From Promethearchaeota archaeon (lineage in GTDB: Archaea > Asgardarchaeota > Lokiarchaeia > Sigyniarchaeales > SOKP01), in contig JAGXNS010000006.1 in the NCBI GenBank assembly GCA_019894855.1, positions 1 through 51,129 of the forward strand: a DNA stretch of 51,129 bases. Direction: 5' to 3'. The notes under the pieces were generated by a model, which did not search any database, had not been told where the DNA came from, and worked only from the letters and a program-made list of their open reading frames with translations. A program made the position numbers and the translations under genes. Below, in pieces: positions 1,299 to 16,010 of the stretch; positions within the stretch are counted from its first letter, which is position 1, and each line of letters begins with the position of its first letter.

Positions 1299-2972
1299 TT
1301 GTTTGACAAAGATTATTTAGAAAGAATAAGAATAGAAAAGGAAAAATGGGAAAAAAATTTAAAAGAATCAAAAGAGCGCGATGTCAAATTTGTAACTGAT
1401 TCTGAAATACCTATAAAAAGACTATACACTCCACTAGATGTTAAAGGAGATTATTTAGACTCAGTTAATTTTCCTGGACAAGAACCATTTACGCGAGGAG
1501 TGTACCCGAATATGTACCGAGGCCGATTATGGACGATGAGACTGTTCTCCGGACACGGAACTCCTGAAGCAACTAACCTACGATGGAAGTATTTATATGA
1601 AAATGGTGAAACTGGTTTCAGTGCTGCTGTAGATGCCCTCACATTTAATGGTATCGATCCAACGAATCCTGATGGTGCTCCAGAGGTCGGTACGTCTGGT
1701 GTACCTCTTTATTGCATCGATAGTCTTTTTGCTCTAACTGAAGATATCCCTATTGATAAAATTAGCGTAGCATTAGTCGTTGAGCCTTTTACAAGCGCTC
1801 CCGTCTGTGCAATGTATTTCAACATGGCTAAAATGCGAGGGTATGATCTAAAAAATTTGATGGGAACAACTCAAAACGATATTTTAACGATGACGGTCGG
1901 TTATATACCTTATAAAAATTCTCCACCAAATCATTTATTAAGGGTTGCTTGTGATTTTATTGAATGGACAGTAGCTCAGAAAAACGTTCCTCTTTGGCAT
2001 CCTATCAATTTTACAGGATATAATTATAGAGAGGGTGGTATTGATGCAATTCAAGAACTTGGTTTTGTATTTGCAAGCGCTTGTTCTCACATTGATAATT
2101 TAGTCGAGAGGGGATGGAAAGCCGATGATTTTGTAGGTAGACTAGCTTTTCATTTAGCTGCTCATAAAGATTTCTTTGAGGAAATAGCAAAATACCGCGC
2201 AGCTCGAAGGATTTGGTATAAGCTCATGAAGGATAAATACGAAGTAAAAAATCCCAAAAATCTTGGTTTTAGGTTTCACGTACAAACCGCCGGAAGCTCC
2301 TTAACAGCTCAATTACCGATGATTAATATCGTTCGCACAGCCATACAAGGATTAGAAGCCAACTTAGGGGGTTGCCAATCTCTTCATACTAACTCTTACG
2401 ACGAAGCTATATGCTTACCCTCAGAACAAGCAGCTCTTGTTGCTTTAAGAACTCAACAAGTGATTGCTGATGAGACTCGAATTACCAATACGATAGATCC
2501 CTTGGCTGGGAGCTATTACGTTGAATGGTTGACTGATGAAATCGAGGAAAGAGTATGGAATTACATGGATAAAATTCAAAAAGTAGGATCCATTGATAAA
2601 GCATTGTCTACCGGATGGCTCTATAAGGAAATGCGAGATGCTTTCCATAAGAGAAGAACTCGCATTGAGAAAGGGGAAGAAATCATGCTTGGTATTAATA
2701 AGTACAACGTACCTTATGATACGGTTACTGATGTTTTCAGAACATCGCAAACAGCTATTGATATCGAAATAAATAGGATTAACAAATTAAAAGCAAGAAG
2801 AGACAACGCAAAATTAGAGAAAATTTTAGACAAGTTAAGAACGGTATGCGAGAAGGAGGAGAATGTCATGCCTATAATAATGGAAGCTACAAAAGAAGGA
2901 GCAACTATTGGCGAGATCTGCGATATTTACAGAGAAATATGGGGCATATGGGAACCACCATTAGCTATTTAA
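1299..2972 (+). CDS. B12-dependent acyl-CoA mutase, large (catalytic) subunit
   Basis: Catalytic TIM-barrel subunit of the methylmalonyl-CoA mutase family, 557 residues, with the B12 domain encoded by the next gene as is usual in archaea. Family landmarks are GTTQNDIL (189-196), FHVQTAGSSLTAQ (326-338), QSLHTNSYDEA (360-370) and IDPLAGSYYVE. Aligned through these to Propionibacterium MCM, substrate residues Tyr89, Arg207 and His244 correspond to Phe83, Tyr202 and Asn242. The cofactor-region His328 and Gln330 are kept (His327, Gln329). This is therefore unlikely to be a genuine methylmalonyl-CoA mutase; its substrate is unknown. The start is TTG at 1299, because a stop lies five codons upstream in frame. 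It forms an operon with the small subunit (14-nt gap). Confidence 0.93.
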   Translation: MFDKDYLERIRIEKEKWEKNLKESKERDVKFVTDSEIPIKRLYTPLDVKGDYLDSVNFPGQEPFTRGVYPNMYRGRLWTMRLFSGHGTPEATNLRWKYLYENGETGFSAAVDALTFNGIDPTNPDGAPEVGTSGVPLYCIDSLFALTEDIPIDKISVALVVEPFTSAPVCAMYFNMAKMRGYDLKNLMGTTQNDILTMTVGYIPYKNSPPNHLLRVACDFIEWTVAQKNVPLWHPINFTGYNYREGGIDAIQELGFVFASACSHIDNLVERGWKADDFVGRLAFHLAAHKDFFEEIAKYRAARRIWYKLMKDKYEVKNPKNLGFRFHVQTAGSSLTAQLPMINIVRTAIQGLEANLGGCQSLHTNSYDEAICLPSEQAALVALRTQQVIADETRITNTIDPLAGSYYVEWLTDEIEERVWNYMDKIQKVGSIDKALSTGWLYKEMRDAFHKRRTRIEKGEEIMLGINKYNVPYDTVTDVFRTSQTAIDIEINRINKLKARRDNAKLEKILDKLRTVCEKEENVMPIIMEATKEGATIGEICDIYREIWGIWEPPLAI

Positions 2973-2986
2973 GTGAGATGTTAATT

Positions 2987-3385
2987 ATGAGTGAAAGAAA
3001 AATTAGGGTATTAATGTCAAAACCGGGTATTGATGGTCATTGGCGAGGTGGTATTGTAGTGTCCAGAGCATTAAGAGATGCGGGAATGGAACTCATATTC
3101 GGAGGATTTCAGAATGTCAATCAGATAGTTGAAGCAGCAATTCAAGAAGACATAGATGTTCTTGGCTTGTCGATACATAGTGGGGCTCATTTTGCGTATA
3201 CGAAACAAGTGATCGATTTATTAAAAGAAAAAGGCGTTTTCAACGACATTCTCATTTTAGTAGGGGGCGTTATTCCAGCACAAGACTTCCCAAAATTAAA
3301 GGAAATTGGCGTAGCTAATGTGTATGGTCCTGGGTCAATGACAAGTGATATTGTACAATTTATAAGAGATAACGTAAAGAAATAA
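2987..3385 (+). CDS. B12-dependent acyl-CoA mutase, small (cobalamin-binding) subunit
   Basis: A 132-residue Rossmann-like B12-binding domain that completes the mutase. The DxHxxG signature appears as DGHWRGG; the His is the lower axial cobalt ligand (base-off/His-on), preceded by the usual lysine in SKPG. LSIHSGAH and the loop VGGVIPAQDF are the other family segments. The frame stays open upstream into the large subunit gene, but the ATG at 2987, 10 nt after a GTGAG ribosome-binding site and just past the large-subunit stop, fits the domain start. ATG 2978 is the alternative. Cobalt and corrin ligands are intact, so the holoenzyme should be functional. Confidence 0.93.
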   Translation: MSERKIRVLMSKPGIDGHWRGGIVVSRALRDAGMELIFGGFQNVNQIVEAAIQEDIDVLGLSIHSGAHFAYTKQVIDLLKEKGVFNDILILVGGVIPAQDFPKLKEIGVANVYGPGSMTSDIVQFIRDNVKK

Positions 3386-3460
3386 TCTCAAATTTAAATT
3401 CTCTTTATTTATGCTTAAAAAATAAACCAGCATTCTATTAATAGTCTGAGCTGTAAAAAA

Positions 3461-4702
3461 ATGGTAAAATCTTTTCAAATCCCTTGGGCAGCATGGAGAG
3501 ATCCTGAGTATTTGGAATTATCCTTTCCCGATTCCTGGGATGTATCCGCTTGTAGGATGAATGGTGCTGATGGACCTGTTTTAAATGATGATGAAATCAA
3601 GCAATCGATTTTAAATCCAATTGGGGCTCCTAGGATATCGGAATTAGCAAAAGGCAAGGAAACTGTAGTTATTGTTGTTGATGATATGACAAGAACTACT
3701 CCTGTGTCAAGAATCATTCCTCACGTCCTTGAAGAATTAGATAAAGCAAGTGTACTTATTGATCAAATCACGATCTTACTGGCTTTAGGTGCCCACAAGC
3801 CAATGAACAGACAAGATTGCATTCTTAAACTCGGAAAAAATGTGGTAAATACAATTAACATAGAAAATCATCATCCTTACGAAAACTTAACAAACCTTGG
3901 GGAATCCAAGATAGGTACACCAATAGAAGTTAATTCAACTTATGTGGATTCTGATTTAAAAATTTCAATCGGAGGCGTGATTCCTCATCCCTTAGCCGGA
4001 TTTGGGGGAGGTGCTAAAAATGTATTGCCTGGGGTATGTGGAATTCGAACGCTTGAGGCCAATCATTCTGCTGGCATGCGAGGAGTTGGTGCGGGGATAG
4101 GGCGAATGACGGATATTAGAAAAGATATCGAGGATATTGCCGATAAAGTTGGATTGGACTTTTCTATCAATGCAATCTTAACCGAATCAGGAGAAATTGC
4201 AGCCATGAGCACGGGGCATTTCAGAGACGCCCATAGAAAAGCAATGGAAATAGGGAAACGGAATTACGGTACAAAAATCACTATTAACAATCAAATTTGC
4301 TTCTTCAATCTATTTCCTGAGGATTCTGAACTAAATCAATCGATTAAGGGATTCAATTTTTTAATGAACGCTCCAAATAATATGCTCGACCGAAAGGGTA
4401 GTATTGTTCTAATGTCGTCTTCATACGAAGGTCGAGGTTATCATAGTCTGATTGCCGAAACAGGAGCTAAATTATATAAAAATATTGGTGATAGCATCGT
4501 ATGGAAAGCTTTTGTTAAAAGAAGAAAAGTATATTTCTTTTCACCAAATATAAGTGAGCCTGAATTATATCATTTTTATCCAAAATCCGTGAAATTATAT
4601 CACGATTGGAACAATTTAATAGACGAATTAACCGAAGTTCACGGAAATGCTCCAAAAGCAGCGCTCTTTCCGTGTAGCATACAATTGGCTGAAAAATCTT
4701 AA
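3461..4702 (+). CDS. LarA-like nickel-pincer (NPN) 2-hydroxyacid racemase
   Basis: Member of the lactate racemase LarA family, 413 residues. LarA uses a nickel-pincer nucleotide bound to a lysine to racemise or epimerise 2-hydroxyacids by hydride transfer. Every landmark is present: DDMTRTTP (74-81, substrate Asp and Arg), His112 in GAHKP, His176 and Lys186 in HPLAGFGGGAK and His202 in EANH. The His-Lys spacing of 10 and Lys-His spacing of 16 equal those of LarA His174/Lys184/His200. It lies 75 bp after the mutase small subunit on the same strand and may be co-transcribed. LarA homologues act on many 2-hydroxyacids, so the substrate is open. Cofactor-maturation genes (larB/C/E) are not in the window. 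Confidence 0.88.
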   Translation: MVKSFQIPWAAWRDPEYLELSFPDSWDVSACRMNGADGPVLNDDEIKQSILNPIGAPRISELAKGKETVVIVVDDMTRTTPVSRIIPHVLEELDKASVLIDQITILLALGAHKPMNRQDCILKLGKNVVNTINIENHHPYENLTNLGESKIGTPIEVNSTYVDSDLKISIGGVIPHPLAGFGGGAKNVLPGVCGIRTLEANHSAGMRGVGAGIGRMTDIRKDIEDIADKVGLDFSINAILTESGEIAAMSTGHFRDAHRKAMEIGKRNYGTKITINNQICFFNLFPEDSELNQSIKGFNFLMNAPNNMLDRKGSIVLMSSSYEGRGYHSLIAETGAKLYKNIGDSIVWKAFVKRRKVYFFSPNISEPELYHFYPKSVKLYHDWNNLIDELTEVHGNAPKAALFPCSIQLAEKS

Positions 4703-4807
4703 AAAATAAAGGCGAATTTTGAATTAAAAAGAAAATAGAATAAAAAAAAAAAAAATAATAAAAAGTTATCTTACTTTTTTTGGTGTAAAACCTAATTTCG
4801 TGTTGTT
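4703..4807. terminator. Convergent terminator region of A/T runs
   Basis: Between two convergent genes there is a run of 14 A at about 4742-4755 (a T-run for the minus-strand transcript) and a T-run near 4772-4780 (for the plus-strand transcript). Oligo-T tracts are the normal intrinsic termination signal in archaea. No hairpin is needed or evident. Confidence 0.45.
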
Positions 4808-6283
4808 CTATCGCTTAACATTCAATTTGTCGTTAATTCCCGCAATGTCCTTTACAATTTTTTTTCTGGCTTCAATATCGTATTGAGATGTGATGGCAAT
4901 TTGTTCCATTACGGGGGAGCCTCCGCCATGATAACCTCCAACTTGAGATATTCCTCCCGTTGCCGAGCAAAGCATATCTCCAACAAATCTCCAGAATTGC
5001 GCTGCATTTTCAGGTGCGATCTTTGGATTTCTTGTAATGTATTTATAAAGAAGATCCTTAACTTCTGGATTCATAAAATCTCTTTCATGAGGGAAAGTCG
5101 CCGGAACACCACCTGAGATATCACATATTATTTCTGCCTCTCGATATACATTTTCTCCCGTTAAGCATCTTCCTACATTACAATAAATTGAATTTGGAAT
5201 ATAACTTCCAGGTCCATAGGGAATAAAGCCCATACCTGGCATGAATACTTCGGGTTTACCTAGATCAGAAGCGGTATATCCCGCAGCGTAGCCAAGTTCC
5301 GTAACCATAATTAATTCAGCTAATTTGTGTCTCACATGGGAAGCTCTTTGAATATTATTGTATTCTGCGGCTAAAGCAGCCGTGCCTACTATTAAATCTC
5401 CGATTGCTGGCTTACATCCTGAGTAGCTGTGTCGATGAAATAAACCAAATAACAAGGCAAGAACACCACCGTGTTGATGTTCCCCACAAAGAAAAACTCT
5501 CTCCCAAGGAACAAAAACATTGTCAAAGATAATGTAGGAATCCGTAGCTCCTGGCATGAATCCTCTCTTGAAATGTTCTCTTTCTCTTAGGTTGTGAATT
5601 GTAACAACTTGTTTTACGCCTTCATAATCACCGGGGACTGCAAATGCAACGGCATAATCTTTATCTTCTGGCCTTAGCGCTCTTGTAGGAACGACAATTA
5701 TTTCATCGGAGACTGAAGCTTCAGAAATGTGAACTTTACATCCGTTCACAATAATTCCGTCGTCTCTTTTTTCTACCACATGAACATACATATCTGGGTC
5801 TTCTTGATCGGCGGGTCGCTTTATCCGATTACCTTTAACGTCCGTTTGAGCACATGCAGCAATTAAATCTTCCTTTTGAAACCGTAACATCCATTTTTTA
5901 AAGTTTTCGTGGTAACTACTTTCTCCTTTGTTTAATTTATCCGCTTCATAGCTCACATTATATATTGCATTAGCTGCGTCACACCCCATACACCTTTGAA
6001 TGCAACCGCCAACCTTTTGACACAATCTACGGGTCATGTCTTGTTTTTTGTGAAGATCGTCCGTACTTTGGTGGATGTGCGTAAAACGATTAATTATTTC
6101 ACCGGTTAGATGGGATTTAACTTTCATTAAATCGCCGTATTCCTCAAACATATCGAAGGTTGTACCGATCGTGTTAATGCAATTCAATTGGCGTTCATCT
6201 AATCTATCAATCTTTTCGCCGTTGTAGTAAAGATTTCTTTTCATTTTACTTAGATCGTTCATATAATCTTCTTTTGTTCTCAT
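4808..6283 (-). CDS. abfD: 4-hydroxybutyryl-CoA dehydratase / vinylacetyl-CoA isomerase family
   Basis: FAD- and [4Fe-4S]-dependent dehydratase of the HpaB/4-hydroxyphenylacetate hydroxylase superfamily, 491 residues. AbfD converts 4-hydroxybutyryl-CoA to crotonyl-CoA via a ketyl radical. The four cluster ligands of the Clostridium enzyme (Cys99, Cys103, His292, Cys299) have matches with identical spacing: Cys94, Cys98, His283 and Cys290 in CIQRC and HRHSYSGC. Oxygen-dependent HpaB hydroxylases lack this set, so the dehydratase call is good. The reaction is used in 4-aminobutyrate and succinate fermentation and in the archaeal 4-hydroxybutyrate cycles; nothing here decides which. It is transcribed alone, divergent from the decarboxylase. 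Confidence 0.88.
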   Translation of the reverse strand: MRTKEDYMNDLSKMKRNLYYNGEKIDRLDERQLNCINTIGTTFDMFEEYGDLMKVKSHLTGEIINRFTHIHQSTDDLHKKQDMTRRLCQKVGGCIQRCMGCDAANAIYNVSYEADKLNKGESSYHENFKKWMLRFQKEDLIAACAQTDVKGNRIKRPADQEDPDMYVHVVEKRDDGIIVNGCKVHISEASVSDEIIVVPTRALRPEDKDYAVAFAVPGDYEGVKQVVTIHNLREREHFKRGFMPGATDSYIIFDNVFVPWERVFLCGEHQHGGVLALLFGLFHRHSYSGCKPAIGDLIVGTAALAAEYNNIQRASHVRHKLAELIMVTELGYAAGYTASDLGKPEVFMPGMGFIPYGPGSYIPNSIYCNVGRCLTGENVYREAEIICDISGGVPATFPHERDFMNPEVKDLLYKYITRNPKIAPENAAQFWRFVGDMLCSATGGISQVGGYHGGGSPVMEQIAITSQYDIEARKKIVKDIAGINDKLNVKR

Positions 6284-6572
6284 TTTTCTACCTCTTTTTA
6301 CGTTTAACTAATTTAGTTTACTTGATAAATATACATATTCCTTTTATCTATAAATAATTAATCCATATTTTATGAAAACTATAACTAAAGTAAAATTGAT
6401 AATAATAAAATTCAAATCCTTTAATCTTATTTTAAAATTAGATGTTTTAACGATAAAACCTTATATAAAAAATGAATCAAAAAGTACTTATATTTAAACT
6501 TGGCACAACACCAAGGCATATAAACCAGAAAAACAATTTTCCTATTTACATAAATAAAAAGATGATGTTTTA
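6284..6572. promoter_or_regulatory. Divergent promoter region (abfD / ThDP decarboxylase)
   Basis: A 289-bp AT-rich spacer between divergent genes. A TATA-like TTATATTTA at 6488-6496 lies 77 bp ahead of the plus-strand ATG, and a TTATATAAAA at about 6462-6471 is palindromic enough to serve either strand. These are sequence resemblances only. Confidence 0.35.
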
Positions 6573-7784
6573 ATGGATATTTACGATGAAATTTTTAAAA
6601 TGTGTTCTGAGCATGGTATAACCTTCTATTCCACTCTACCTTGCTCACATAATTTAAAATTTATACAAAAGCTTGAAGAACTTGATGGAGAAATCTTAGA
6701 AAATGCAGATAAGGCATTAATTCACATTCCCCTTGTAAGGGAAGAGAGTGGTGTGTCATTGAGCGCCGGAGCTTATCTTGGGGGTAGAAAAACCGCTATG
6801 GTAATTCAAAACCAAGGTCTAGGCAACATGATTACCCAATTGCTTTCATTAAATAGTCATCTAAATGGTTCATACAGAATTCCAAATTTATTAATAATAA
6901 GCCATCGTGGATTAGAGAATGAAAAAATCAATGCTCAAAAGCCTGTTGGCTCAAAATCAAAAGAGATTCTTGATTTAGTTGGATTTAAACATTGTTCTGT
7001 TAAATATATTTCAGATCTTAAAAAGTTTCAAGAATTATTAGGAGAATATGATAAAGGACAAAATGTTGCATTATTAGTGGAACCTGATCATTCTAAACCT
7101 CTTTATAGAATTGAAAATGAGAAAAATATAATAAGGAATTTCAAAGGAAACACAATTCCAATGAATAAAGTCCAAGCCAATATGACTAGACATAAAGCGA
7201 TCTCTGAAATTATAAATCAAATAGAAAATGAATTTGTTGTTTCTAACTTAGGTCATCCAAGTAGAGAGTTACATCGGTTAAAAGATAGAGAGAGAAATTT
7301 CTATCTTACATCGTGTCTAGGACATTCCTATACATTAGCGCTGGGACTAGCGTTAAGTACAGAGGATATAAATCAGAAGATTATATGTTTTGAAGGTGAT
7401 GGAGGGTTATTGATGAATGCTGGGTCTTTATCGATCTTAGCTCATAAAAAACCAAAGAATTTGATTGTAATACTTCTGGATAATGGAGTATGGGGATCCA
7501 CCGGAAATACTGAAACTTATGCTTTAAATGAAGTAAATCTAAGCGGTGTAGCACAAGCATAAGGATTTCCCGAATCTAATATAAAAATTATATCAAAAGA
7601 AGAACATTTAGCAGAAAACTTGAGAAATGCACTAAAAAACGATGGTCCTTTTTTATTTCACGTTATTATTACAGATAAGTATGAAAAAGTTCCTATTTTG
7701 CCACTTTCTGTTGTGGAGATTAAAGAACGATTCATGAAATCAATTGAGGATGCTAGAATATCAAATAACATTTATAATATTTAA
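6573..7784 (+). pseudogene. Sulfopyruvate-decarboxylase-like (ComDE-type) ThDP enzyme with in-frame TAA
   Basis: A fused ThDP-dependent 2-oxoacid decarboxylase resembling sulfopyruvate/phosphonopyruvate decarboxylase. The N-terminal pyrimidine-binding half (about 1-170) has the REESG and IQNQGLGN motifs. The C-terminal pyrophosphate half has the GDGG...LLDN cofactor motif (EGDGGLLMN, then VILLDNGVWGSTG). Translation stops at TAA 7560-7562 after residue 329, yet the same frame continues without any shift for 73 more sense codons (GFPESNIKII onward) to TAA 7784, giving the expected C-terminus and a total of about 400 codons. The stop interrupts the fold between VAQA and GFPE. It may be a recent nonsense mutation, a readthrough site or a consensus error. 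The next gene starts 14 nt downstream. Confidence 0.8.
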
Positions 7785-7798
7785 CTTATAAAAAGAAA

Positions 7799-9007
7799 AT
7801 GAATGAAGAAAAATCACAGGTTTACGGGTATCGTTGGATTCTTTTGTTTATCTTTATGTTAGGTAATTTATCGTTGCAGATTTTGTGGATTTCTTATGCG
7901 ACAGTAACCTTAGATGCGGCGGCATATTATAACGTAAATGAATTTGAGATACTTTTTTTATCGACGATTTTCATGATTACTTACATCCCTGTTTCATTTA
8001 TAGCGACTTGGTTTATTAATAAATTTGGCTTTAGAATGGGTGTAGGGTTAGGAGCTATAATTAATGGCGTTTTTGGCTTTTCGAGAGCTTTAGCTGGGCC
8101 AAATTATCTTTTAGTTTTATTTCTTACGATCATGATTTCTGTAAGCCAACCGTTTTTCTTAAACAGCGTTTCATTACTATCCGCTAATTGGTTTCCAGAG
8201 TCGGAACGCACTAAAGCAACTGGTCTTTCAATAATTTCTCAATTTTTAGGCATCGCCATTGGGATGGTTTTAACACCAATTTTAGTTGTAATTTACAGTT
8301 TTGAAGTGATGTTATTTATTTATGGGTTATATTCTTTAATAATCGGTATACTGTTTATTATATTAGCTCGAGATAGACCTCCTACACCACCATCAATAAA
8401 GGTTCTTAAAGAGGATGATAAATTAAAAGGAGGCCTAAAAATGCTTTTTTCTAATAAGCAGTTCTGGATACTAATGATTGTTTTCTTCGTAGGTCTGGGC
8501 GCATTTAATATGGTGACAACTTATATTGAGCTTATTGTTGTTCCCAGAGGTTTAACTTCTATCGAGGCTGGTAATCTTGGGGGGATACTGCTTTTAGGTG
8601 GTATAATAGGAGCCCAACTGATGTCAATATTAGCAGATAAATTACGGAAAAAAGCAATATTAATAAAAATCTCGCTAGTAATTACTGTTGCTTCTTTTTT
8701 TCTAATATCGTTTGCCAATACTACAATTATGTTATACGTTTCTGGATTATTATTAGGGTTCGGATTATTATCTGTTGGTCCTGTTTTAATAGAATATGCC
8801 GTTGATATTACGGCACCTGTTCCGGAAGCAAGTTCAAACGGGGTGCTTATGGTGATAGGTTCGATTAGTGGAATTATATTTATTGTAGCTTTTGAAAAGT
8901 TAACTACTCCTTCAGGAGATTATCTCCCTGCCTTGATTGTATTATCCATCCTTTCATTAGTAGCATTTCTTCTCTCCTTCTTTCTTAAAGAGACGAAAAG
9001 AGAATAA
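7799..9007 (+). CDS. MFS transporter, FLVCR-like
   Basis: A 402-residue major facilitator superfamily carrier with about 12 hydrophobic segments. The cytoplasmic loop ANWFPESERTKATG resembles the WFP..ER..AT motif of the FLVCR and oxalate/formate groups. RDRPPTPPS in the central loop is also common in FLVCR-type carriers. It starts 14 nt after the decarboxylase frame, so it is probably co-transcribed and may bring in or export that pathway's substrate. The substrate cannot be read from the sequence. Confidence 0.85.
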   Translation: MNEEKSQVYGYRWILLFIFMLGNLSLQILWISYATVTLDAAAYYNVNEFEILFLSTIFMITYIPVSFIATWFINKFGFRMGVGLGAIINGVFGFSRALAGPNYLLVLFLTIMISVSQPFFLNSVSLLSANWFPESERTKATGLSIISQFLGIAIGMVLTPILVVIYSFEVMLFIYGLYSLIIGILFIILARDRPPTPPSIKVLKEDDKLKGGLKMLFSNKQFWILMIVFFVGLGAFNMVTTYIELIVVPRGLTSIEAGNLGGILLLGGIIGAQLMSILADKLRKKAILIKISLVITVASFFLISFANTTIMLYVSGLLLGFGLLSVGPVLIEYAVDITAPVPEASSNGVLMVIGSISGIIFIVAFEKLTTPSGDYLPALIVLSILSLVAFLLSFFLKETKRE

Positions 9008-9149
9008 AATCAATTCTCATCCATATTTTCATGAAAAATATTGTGAAGCTTTTATTCGAGATTATGTCCAAAACTAAAAAACCAATCTAGTATTTTTCTA
9101 TCTAAGTAATTTGTTTACGCATCTACGAATCTGAGGAAGTCATTTTTTC

Positions 9150-10121
9150 ATGAGAAGTTATGATTTAGGAAGTTTGATAACTAAATTTAAAAATAAGGAC
9201 AAAATTGCTTTAGCAAGATTAATTACCCTTATCGAGAACGAACCTGAACGAGCACACGAGGTTTTTAAGCATTTTGAAAGTGTAAAGCACGAATCTTATA
9301 TAATTGGACTAACTGGCTCCCCTGGGGTAGGAAAAAGTACGTTAACGGGTGCCATAGCTCAAAAAATGTTGGATGAAGGAAAATCTGTAGGAATTATATC
9401 CGTAGATCCAACGAGTCCTTTTAGCGGAGGAGCATTTTTAGGGGATAGAGTTAGGATGACTAATATATCCTTACACCCTAACGTTTTTATGCGTAGTCTT
9501 GCTTCAAGAGGTTATAAAGGTGGGATATCAAGAGCAGTTTTCGACATCAGCATGCTATATGAAGCTTTTGGAATTGATATTATCATTATTGAAACGGTGG
9601 GAGTTGGACAAGCGGAGTTTGATGTCTACAATTTAGTTTACACCGTTGTAGTTATCTTAGTTCCTGGTTACGGTGATGTCATTCAGATGCAAAAAGCCGG
9701 TATTATCGAGATTGGAGATATCTACGATGTTAACAAAAAAGATTTAGGAGGAGAAGATATTGCAGTACAAATTGAAATGATGCTCGACGATTCGATATTT
9801 CAGAGTGGATACAGACCGCCAGTAGTATTAACTGACGCTATTAAAGGTGAAGGTGTAGATGATTTGCTCCAATACATTTGGGATCATAAGGAACATATTG
9901 AATTATCTGGTACTATAAAAGAAAAGCAAAAAAATCGGTTTAATTATAAGATAAAAGAACTGGTTTTCACAAAAGTCGAAAAACTAATCTCAGAAGAAGT
10001 TCTCAATAAGAATAAAATTACGGAAATAATAAATGATGCGTTGGATAATAGCAGCTTTAGAATTTATGACAAAGTTCACAATCTTTTTGAAAAACTGAAT
10101 TTTAAAATTGAAGAAGAATGA
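9150..10121 (+). CDS. meaB: MeaB/ArgK-type G-protein chaperone of B12 mutase
   Basis: P-loop GTPase of the MeaB/MMAA family, 323 residues. Residues 55-63 form the Walker A loop (GSPGVGKST). VDPTSPFSGG and LGDRVRM are diagnostic of the family, ETVGVGQAE is switch II, and NKKD supplies guanine specificity. MeaB proteins gate loading of adenosylcobalamin into acyl-CoA mutases and protect or reactivate them. The mutase subunits lie 6 kb upstream on the same strand, so they are the natural client. The N-terminal arm and C-terminal dimerisation helices are present. A GAGGAAG ribosome-binding site lies about 11 nt before the ATG. Confidence 0.92.
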   Translation: MRSYDLGSLITKFKNKDKIALARLITLIENEPERAHEVFKHFESVKHESYIIGLTGSPGVGKSTLTGAIAQKMLDEGKSVGIISVDPTSPFSGGAFLGDRVRMTNISLHPNVFMRSLASRGYKGGISRAVFDISMLYEAFGIDIIIIETVGVGQAEFDVYNLVYTVVVILVPGYGDVIQMQKAGIIEIGDIYDVNKKDLGGEDIAVQIEMMLDDSIFQSGYRPPVVLTDAIKGEGVDDLLQYIWDHKEHIELSGTIKEKQKNRFNYKIKELVFTKVEKLISEEVLNKNKITEIINDALDNSSFRIYDKVHNLFEKLNFKIEEE

Positions 10122-10260
10122 TACATCTTCCTCAATAGTCTCATTTTATTTAGAAATCGTTTAAAGTAAGGACCAGTCTAAACTACATTATTCCCTCAAG
10201 AATTAAATCACCGTCTTTAAAATTTAGAGGGTAAAACTTATAACACTTTTTTTCTAACTC

Positions 10261-11187
10261 GTGACTATGCTCCATAAAAATAAAAGAATCTCTCTCGAGG
10301 GGAAAATGGATGATTGGGGTCCCTTTGGTAAAAACGAGGGGAAATGGTTGATATTTTCAATTGGTAATCCTGTAGAAGGTCATGGATACGCACTACCAAG
10401 AAATATTGACGATCTACACTCGCAACGAGTGGCTCATCTTATCTCGTGTAAAACGGGAGGGCGATATGTTGGACATATACCATGGACAACAGATAATTTT
10501 ACTTCAGTCGCAAAAGATTGGGCACCAAAATCAATTCCAGTGGAAGAAATTGTAAAAAATATAATAGATTTCATAAAATTCCACACTGAAATTTATAAAA
10601 AAATGGATTTACCAACATCGAGGGTATTTATATATTCAGGGCACGGGGGAAACGATCCTCTTGTTAATTATACTAAAGAAATTCAGGACGCACTACACTT
10701 AGAGAGATTAATTATCTCTACAACAGAAGGAATCGCTGAAGATAATATCGATAGGATAATGGTAGAATTAGAAAAACTTTCTATAGAACTCGCAATTAAG
10801 GGTGGAAATCCGAGACAGATAAAAAGGATTTTAATTAAAATATTATTAAGTGCTGCACATGCGGGACATTTCGAACATTCACTTGGAGCAGCTTTAGGTG
10901 TTTTGGACGAAGAAAAGCTTAAGATGATGAATGAAGAATTGGAAAAAGATTTTGAATCTGCTCTTAATAAATGGCCTCCAATTGGAGGATTGGGTGGCTT
11001 TTTAATTGCTGGTGGAGAATATACAGAAGCGTTAGGGACAAAAGATAACGATAAATTTGGATTATGGAATTGTTTGAAGCGGCTTCGCACACTTGATAAC
11101 GGTAAAGTAAGAATTTTTAAAGAATTAGGGGAATTGATTATAAATTTGTTAGTAGAATATTATTCTGAAATAATTTTAAGTAATTAA
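10261..11187 (+). CDS. Creatininase-family amidohydrolase
   Basis: A 308-residue protein of the creatininase/ArfB fold, metal-dependent enzymes that open cyclic amides or deformylate. Metal motifs are Glu39 and His41 in VEGHG with Asp50 nine residues after the His, the YSGHGGND loop (usual NGHGGN), and AHAGHFEHS (usual HAGExETS). In archaea one member, ArfB, deformylates a riboflavin/F420 precursor, while others act on creatinine or mycofactocin precursors; this one is longer than ArfB, so no specific call is made. The first codon is GTG at 10261; ATG 10267 is an equally good start. It sits between meaB and a symporter. Confidence 0.8.
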   Translation: MTMLHKNKRISLEGKMDDWGPFGKNEGKWLIFSIGNPVEGHGYALPRNIDDLHSQRVAHLISCKTGGRYVGHIPWTTDNFTSVAKDWAPKSIPVEEIVKNIIDFIKFHTEIYKKMDLPTSRVFIYSGHGGNDPLVNYTKEIQDALHLERLIISTTEGIAEDNIDRIMVELEKLSIELAIKGGNPRQIKRILIKILLSAAHAGHFEHSLGAALGVLDEEKLKMMNEELEKDFESALNKWPPIGGLGGFLIAGGEYTEALGTKDNDKFGLWNCLKRLRTLDNGKVRIFKELGELIINLLVEYYSEIILSN

Positions 11188-11340
11188 TTCTTTGTTTATG
11201 AAAAAAAATCATTTTTACTGAATTTGTTTCGAATTTCTATCACATAAAATATAGCTTTATATTATATCGCAACGTAATCTCATTAATTTGAAAAATTTAA
11301 CAATAAATAAACTACTCTAATTTAAAAAAAGGTTTTGTAA

Positions 11341-12747
11341 ATGGAAAAAGAAATTGAAACGGTTGAAATTAAACACTCTAAAAAGAACATGGTTTCATAT
11401 GGTTTTGGTTGTTATATAGCCGAATTTTTTGGCATGGCCTTCGGAGCGTATGTTTTCTTTTATTATGAGACCGTGATTGAATTAAATGTTTGGTTAACTA
11501 GCATAGGATTTATTATTTTCGCAATCTGGAACGCAGTGAATGACCCTTTAATGGGTTGGCTGACGGATCGTGTCTTTAAATTTACAAAAAAATGGGGAAG
11601 ACGACTTCCATGGGTTATAATTGGAGGAATTCCTTGGATTTTTAGTTATTTACTGCTATTTACTCCTCCAGAAGTAGATCCAAATAGTGGAGCTCTCATT
11701 CTATTTGTTTGGCTCGTTGTTATGACATGTTTGTACGACACATTTGCTTCACTCTTTAGTGTGAATTTCTATTCTATCTTTCCAGATAAATTTCGCGGTG
11801 ATAGTGAACGAAGATTAGCTTCTACTTTAAGTACTCTAGTAGCAGCTCTGGGAACAGCCACAGGATCGATAATTCCAAGTCTTATTATTGTACTTGGGGA
11901 AAGAAGTACGTATACCCTACAAGCAGGAGTTGTTGTAATTGTATGTTTATTAGCATTAGTAGCTGCAATTCCTGGCAGTCGTGAAGATCAAGTGCGTATT
12001 GATTGTTACCTAGAGAAATGCGAAGAAGACATGGAAAGAACGCCGTTTTATAAAGAATTTAAAAGTATCTTAAAACACAAGAACTATATGGCTTATGTAA
12101 TATCCTTCATGTTTTACCAGTGTTTAGTGCAAACAATGATAGGATCCATTCCATACGTTGCAAAATTTGTATTAGACGTGGAAGGTATCGATATCACGAT
12201 AATAATGGCAGCTCTTCTCATAGGAATGTTTGTATCGATGCCCATTTGGAGTAAGATCGCCGATAAGACGAATAACGACAGAAAGACAATAATAATTGCA
12301 GCTACTTTCTTAACAATTGTTACCATACCGCTTTTCTTTATCGATAATTATCCCATCATGATCATCGCAATCTTGATTTGGGGAATGGGTGAAGGTGGTT
12401 ATTGGGTTATGCTTTCACCAGTTAGATCGACTGTGATAGATGAAGCTGTGGTTATGTCTGGTAGGAGAAATGAAGGAATTTACCAAGGTTTTCAAACATT
12501 TGTCAGCAGGGCAGCTTTAGTTGCTCAAGCTCTTAGCTTCTCTATAGTACACACTATAACAGGCTTTATAGAAGGCGGTGACCTTATTGATCAACCAACA
12601 TCTGCAGTGCTAGGTGTTCAAATACATTTTGCTCTACTCCCTATGGTTTTCATGTTCATAGCAACGATAGTCATATGGAGATTTTTCAAATTAACACCTG
12701 ATAGAGTTAAAGAGAACAAAGAGAAACTAAAAGAAATAGGTCTATAA
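11341..12747 (+). CDS. GPH-family (MelB-like) cation symporter
   Basis: A 468-residue MFS-fold permease of the glycoside-pentoside-hexuronide:cation symporter group. The segment NAVNDPLMGWLTDR, with its cation-site Asp, followed by RRLPWV at about residues 62-91 is the family signature. About 12 transmembrane segments can be drawn. Substrates of the family range from sugars and glucuronides to small organic acids, so the cargo here is open. It is the last plus-strand gene of the catabolic block, with an AT-rich promoter-like spacer in front. Confidence 0.86.
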   Translation: MEKEIETVEIKHSKKNMVSYGFGCYIAEFFGMAFGAYVFFYYETVIELNVWLTSIGFIIFAIWNAVNDPLMGWLTDRVFKFTKKWGRRLPWVIIGGIPWIFSYLLLFTPPEVDPNSGALILFVWLVVMTCLYDTFASLFSVNFYSIFPDKFRGDSERRLASTLSTLVAALGTATGSIIPSLIIVLGERSTYTLQAGVVVIVCLLALVAAIPGSREDQVRIDCYLEKCEEDMERTPFYKEFKSILKHKNYMAYVISFMFYQCLVQTMIGSIPYVAKFVLDVEGIDITIIMAALLIGMFVSMPIWSKIADKTNNDRKTIIIAATFLTIVTIPLFFIDNYPIMIIAILIWGMGEGGYWVMLSPVRSTVIDEAVVMSGRRNEGIYQGFQTFVSRAALVAQALSFSIVHTITGFIEGGDLIDQPTSAVLGVQIHFALLPMVFMFIATIVIWRFFKLTPDRVKENKEKLKEIGL

Positions 12748-14786: not shown

Positions 14787-15380
14787 ATGAGTCGAAATTA
14801 TAATAAGTTAAAATATAAAATAAGTTCAATATCTACTAGTGTCACTTCCGTTTTAATACCATTTTACCAATATGTGCCTTGCCTATCTATATGGTTCGGT
14901 ATTATGAGTGTACCTTTAGTATCATACTTAGCTTTCTTTTTTCAGTATCCTAATATTCTCCTAATAGACATTCAATTCTTAACAAGCTCATATGGGTTCA
15001 ATTTGGTATTATTTGGCTTCATCCTTTTTATTTACACAGTTGTCTATCAATTGACACATAGAAAACAATTGATGCGGACGGGACCATATAAGTACATTAG
15101 ACACCCTCAATATCTTGCTTTCATTATTATGACTTTGGGTATGACGTTAGTAGCTTTTCAAACTGGTCCCGTATTCGATTTTCCAGTTTATAATGTTGAC
15201 GGCCACACAATTATCTTTTTAATCTGGATTGGTGAAGTACTGGCTTACATTTTTTTAGGCAAGATCGAAGAACTAGCCTTAAAAACTAAATATGGAGATG
15301 AATTCTTAGAATATGCAAACGATGTATCCTTTATGTTTCCTTTCTTAAAATTAAAAAGGAATAAAATTGAAAAAAATTAA
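14787..15380 (+). CDS. ICMT/PEMT-like membrane methyltransferase, copy 1
   Basis: A 197-residue integral membrane protein of the isoprenylcysteine carboxyl methyltransferase/phospholipid methyltransferase group. The SAM-binding signature is RTGPYKYIRHPQYLAF, and the C-terminal part is GKIEELALKTKYGDEFLEY with the conserved Glu and Tyr. About five hydrophobic segments precede and surround it. Members methylate prenylcysteines, phospholipids or small thiols at the membrane; the acceptor is not known. It is followed after 27 bp by a paralogue about 60% identical. Confidence 0.82.
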   Translation: MSRNYNKLKYKISSISTSVTSVLIPFYQYVPCLSIWFGIMSVPLVSYLAFFFQYPNILLIDIQFLTSSYGFNLVLFGFILFIYTVVYQLTHRKQLMRTGPYKYIRHPQYLAFIIMTLGMTLVAFQTGPVFDFPVYNVDGHTIIFLIWIGEVLAYIFLGKIEELALKTKYGDEFLEYANDVSFMFPFLKLKRNKIEKN

Positions 15381-15407: not shown

Positions 15408-16010
15408 ATGGATTTTCAAGGAAGTAAAATCAAAAAAAAAATTGAGGCAATTTCTACGAGAATTTCTTCAATTGTCATTCCAATTTTTCAATACGTACCT
15501 TGCTTATCCATATGGCTTGGCATAATGAGTGTTCCATTAATAACTTACTTAACCTTTTTCTTTCAAAATCCCAAAATTCTACCAACTGACTATTTTTTTT
15601 TATTTCAAAATCACGGTGTTTATTTTATTATATTTGGTTTTTTGCTTTTTGTTTATTCATTAATCTTTCAATTAACTCATAGAAAGCAGCTGATTCGATC
15701 CGGACCATATAAATATATGAGACACCCTCAATATCTAGCGTTCATTCTTATGACCTTTGGAATGACATTAATAGTTTTTCAAACAACACCTGTTGTCGAA
15801 TATAATCCCTTTCATCTTAATGGTTATACAATTATCTTGTATACTTGGGTCATTGAAGTGTTGGCATATATAATCTTAGGAAAAATTGAAGATATTGCGT
15901 TAAAAGCTAAATATGGAGATAAATTTTTAGAGTATAAGAATACTGTATCTTTTATGTTCCCAACCGTAAAATTAAAGAAAAAAGACTTTAAACATGGAAT
16001 CGAAAAATAA
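15408..16010 (+). CDS. ICMT/PEMT-like membrane methyltransferase, copy 2
   Basis: A 200-residue paralogue of the preceding gene, roughly 60% identical over its full length by eye, with the same RSGPYKYMRHPQYLAF and GKIEDIALKAKYGDKF motifs and the shared segment QYVPCLSIW. The pair is clearly a tandem duplication. Divergence is greatest in the luminal/extracellular loops around residues 55-75 and 130-145, which may alter the acceptor. Its 3' end overlaps the start of the regulator gene by 17 nt, so the three genes form an operon. Confidence 0.82.
   Translation: MDFQGSKIKKKIEAISTRISSIVIPIFQYVPCLSIWLGIMSVPLITYLTFFFQNPKILPTDYFFLFQNHGVYFIIFGFLLFVYSLIFQLTHRKQLIRSGPYKYMRHPQYLAFILMTFGMTLIVFQTTPVVEYNPFHLNGYTIILYTWVIEVLAYIILGKIEDIALKAKYGDKFLEYKNTVSFMFPTVKLKKKDFKHGIEK

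Follow-up and report, generated by a model that had tools for sequence, protein, structure and literature searches.

An in-frame TAA in an otherwise intact and conserved decarboxylase gene of a Lokiarchaeia genome: a candidate recent nonsense change

A conserved gene for a putative thiamine diphosphate (ThDP)-dependent decarboxylase in a Lokiarchaeia genome is interrupted by a single in-frame TAA. The base difference is present in the assembly, is private to this genome among those compared and is accompanied by no decay of the surrounding sequence. The explanation that we favour, with modest confidence, is that a tyrosine codon very recently acquired a private T-to-A nonsense change, which the sequenced Lokiarchaeia population would carry either as a fixed difference or as a strain variant. 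The gene lies in the window analysed here, a stretch of 51,129 nucleotides (contig C137) from a metagenome-assembled genome (MAG) of 2.5 Mb in 170 contigs, with 83.65% completeness and 5.11% contamination. Relatives that share the gene bear the names Candidatus Lokiarchaeota or Lokiarchaeia. The features of the gene are collected in Table 1.

Table 1. Parts of the interrupted decarboxylase gene, in window coordinates.
Feature	Position	Strand	Evidence or comparison
Interrupted gene, fused (alpha+beta) ThDP-dependent 2-oxoacid decarboxylase, sulfopyruvate/phosphonopyruvate decarboxylase-like	6573..7784	+	Translation, orthologues, profile matches
Translatable part, 329 aa with invariant Glu57 and GDG...DN cofactor motif	6573..7562	+	
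In-frame TAA	7560..7562	+	Orthologues: TAT (3 species), TTT (1), TAC (1), TGC (Bathyarchaeota)
Orphaned C-terminal 73 codons and ancestral TAA stop, sequence still conserved	7563..7784	+	

Translation of the whole frame gives 329 residues up to the inner TAA and a further 73 from there to the terminal TAA at 7782-7784. There is neither a frameshift nor a second defect downstream of the inner stop. All coordinates given in a preliminary description of this DNA proved correct, and both the translation and the sister alignment agree with its account of an in-frame TAA that leaves the frame intact on both sides and needs no shift. Because 73 open codons would be improbable at the local base composition (p ~0.001) and this part can be aligned with the sister proteins, to which identity across the stop is 79-90%, these codons are, judged by sequence comparison, the genuine former C-terminus. 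Taken alone, the post-stop stretch also matches the final part (positions 127-181 of 182) of the model for the beta subunit of sulfopyruvate decarboxylase, with E 5.7e-7.

Uninterrupted orthologues were found in four congeneric species, at 90, 90, 88 and 79% identity, one of which ends with its contig at residue 382, beyond the stop site. A confamilial genome (G024) carries an orthologue at 52% identity, and a relative on a Bathyarchaeota contig reaches 57% over its best segment. With one genome compared per species, the codon at the stop site is TAT in G021, G003 and G008, TTT in G007, TAC in G024 and TGC in the Bathyarchaeota relative. The comparison with sister genomes that had been called for at the outset therefore found a sense codon at the site in all relatives, and the premature stop is missing from every orthologue, as in a nonsense pseudogene. 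The simplest event would be a single change of the third base of a Tyr codon from T to A, private to the window's own branch. The earlier proposal that the gene is intact apart from one changed base is borne out by these codons, which do not fit AAA, CAA or GAA to TAA, the changes it had offered as examples. A cysteine or selenocysteine position was also considered and rejected, as TGC appears only in the Bathyarchaeota relative and Lokiarchaeia have Tyr or Phe.

The age of the change was approached by fitting a codon model to the gene in five genomes. The dN/dS ratio was 0.114 on the window branch vs 0.119 in the background (2 delta lnL 0.01), and 0.14 on the window branch past the stop. Parsimony counts of private replacement and silent changes (13/16 in the window gene, 16/18 in G003 and 22/19 in G021) agree with the model. 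No relaxed selection is seen on the window branch, and the unchanged dN/dS permits only a very recent event. The cost in lnL of letting a fraction f of that branch evolve neutrally is 1.4 units for f=0.1, rising to 3.6 for f=0.2 and 9.8 for f=0.5; neutral evolution over more than ~0.12 of the branch (interpolated) is therefore disfavoured. Because of this limit, the stop would have to be very young, an artefact or of no consequence.

The preliminary description had listed recent gene death, an erroneous base and readthrough, and these are the right options to weigh. Unrelaxed selection is predicted equally by a wrong base in the assembly and counts against a young nonsense change. That the TAA arose as an error of the consensus or the assembly, with a normal gene in the living cells, is accordingly a serious prospect, to which we give appreciable but lesser weight. 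It is favoured by the constraint on the 73 C-terminal codons, by the fragmented state of the MAG and by the absence of any interruption in the 17 further window genes that could be set against sister contigs. Against it, the stop site lies outside any homopolymer (GCATAAGG), no clustering of other errors is seen in the window, and across a whole genome young nonsense mutations normally outnumber errors in the consensus. A generally error-rich contig was rejected, since those 17 genes are unbroken and the other in-frame stops flagged either precede a plausible start (those near window 1284 and 19313) or, at residue 491, form the normal end of an HpaB-like gene.

Translation through the stop, whether by the ribosome or by a suppressor tRNA, would restore the full 403-residue enzyme. 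Both the frame and the constraint persist beyond the stop, as this explanation expects, but it is very unlikely: no relative has a stop at the site, so the conservation typical of programmed readthrough is missing, and the ancestral gene's own terminator, 74 codons downstream, is likewise TAA. TAA also terminates 32 of the 45 window ORFs, and its reassignment was rejected on that count. A suppressor tRNA is not supported either, as no TTA anticodon occurs among the tRNAs found by ARAGORN, in a survey of an incomplete genome in which six candidate loci were left unresolved by the program. Literature reports of such readthrough in Asgard archaea were not found. It is most improbable that the source species itself reads through the TAA at the Tyr position and makes a full-length decarboxylase. 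Just as poor are the prospects that the shortened protein of 329 residues still works as an enzyme. Glu57, which is invariant, and the GDG...DN cofactor motif are both encoded ahead of the stop, but the C-terminal region is retained in all orthologues and in more distant relatives, and by the predicted model the truncated chain lacks two strands and two helices of its PP domain.

If the change is a young nonsense mutation, the third base of a Tyr codon would have gone from T to A in an otherwise intact, conserved gene. Translation would then stop at residue 329, leaving a fragment without the last part of the ThDP-binding domain that is probably inactive. A structure predicted for the G021 protein in its intact form from a shallow alignment, with a mean pLDDT of 73.9, places a strand at 337-340, a helix at 343-355, a strand at 360-365 and a helix at 380-399 past the last translated residue, and by this model the lost 74 residues form the end of the ThDP-binding (PP) domain. 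The complete PP domain is absent from the translated part and present in the sister orthologues. Because the lost residues finish this domain, the truncated product would probably not be a folded, active enzyme even though the cofactor motif remains. The earlier expectation of an inactive enzyme, argued from a loss in the ThDP-binding half, is therefore plausible from the predicted model, with the qualification that the GDG...DN motif is still translated. A search of the assembly for an intact second copy found none, and this possibility was rejected, as the sole other match is a 29%-identical paralogue. We infer that the change exists in the cells and abolishes activity.

Broken genes elsewhere in the source genome were sampled through two families, the ABC and MFS transporters. 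The 24 ABC-transporter matches contain no inner stops. Two MFS transporter loci of the source genome, G000:C12:4737-5810 and G000:C48:3057-3686, carry five and two in-frame stops, respectively, and look like older pseudogenes. Decayed genes are thus present in the source assembly, and broken genes are uncommon within the two-family sample. As these two loci are plainly decayed, gene death does occur in the lineage.

The decarboxylase gene is flanked, within window 1299-12747, by genes for methylmalonyl-CoA mutase subunits, a LarA-type racemase, an HpaB-like enzyme, MFS transporters and MeaB, a neighbourhood that is partly retained in sister genomes. In G021, the frame of the methylmalonyl-CoA mutase large-subunit gene (L044 3620-5324) is broken by an insertion of ~31 bases near L044 3881; its counterpart in the window (1299-2969) is intact. 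Further along the window, the adjacent ORFs 14787-15380 and 15408-16010 match one and the same G008 gene (63 and 54% identity) and may have arisen by tandem duplication.

The truncated protein matches PF02775 with 44.5 bits (cut-off 21.9), and the ThDP/Mg motif residues G275-D276-G277 and D303-N304 are invariant and all precede the stop. By this motif and the match to the C-terminal TPP (PP) domain, the protein can be placed in the ThDP-dependent 2-oxoacid decarboxylase superfamily. The closest solved structure by sequence is PDB 9iz3 alpha/beta, a phosphonopyruvate decarboxylase. A structure search with the predicted model returned generic ThDP enzymes, with the large rmsd that a model of two domains leads one to expect.

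A role in coenzyme M metabolism, raised in the preliminary description, found no support: scores fall below the sulfopyruvate decarboxylase cut-offs, and the expected partner genes were not found. ComA was not found in the source genome (84% complete), ComB was not found there or in any of the congeneric genomes compared, and no match to cysteate synthase exceeded the cut-off in the source genome or its congeners. A true phosphonopyruvate decarboxylase (442 bits, TIGR03297) is encoded elsewhere in the source genome, with PEP mutase on the same contig. PEP mutase was not found in the four congeners with an intact decarboxylase gene (G003, G007, G008 and G021). On the Bathyarchaeota contig (L046:3592-5416), a gene for 2-phosphosulfolactate phosphatase (ComB) stands immediately upstream of the related decarboxylase, whose identity to the G021 protein is 54%; this ComB-type neighbour is the only hint at a sulfonate substrate. 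Sister species keep this enzyme under selection without the coenzyme M and phosphonate genes tested. At most, the stop would show that a single Asgard archaeon has very recently lost one metabolic gene, and annotators gain the right full-length gene model.

Among known enzymes, the orthologues resemble ComD and ComE in their two-part architecture, here fused, and both models are covered almost completely by the full-length relatives. Archaeal fusions of ComD with ComE have been described (PMC11237513). However, all Lokiarchaeia orthologues stay below both curated cut-offs, with 110-116 bits for sulfopyruvate decarboxylase alpha (TIGR03845, cut-off 147.95) and 174-198 bits for beta (TIGR03846, cut-off 221.5). 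The single-chain phosphonopyruvate decarboxylase model TIGR03297 is likewise matched over its full length, but at 193-202 bits the intact orthologues are far under its cut-off of 312.5. By sequence, the most fitting name for them is fused ComDE/Ppd-like ThDP decarboxylases.

The accessible portions of the literature on nonsense pseudogenes in archaeal MAGs held nothing directly relevant. As in young nonsense pseudogenes of prokaryote genomes, the gene has one premature stop, an otherwise intact frame and sequence, and intact sister orthologues; it differs from them in that the presence of the stop is known from the assembly alone. With assembly error as a strong rival, the interrupted decarboxylase gene is most likely an ordinary case of its kind, a one-base nonsense difference that makes a loss-of-function allele of recent origin.
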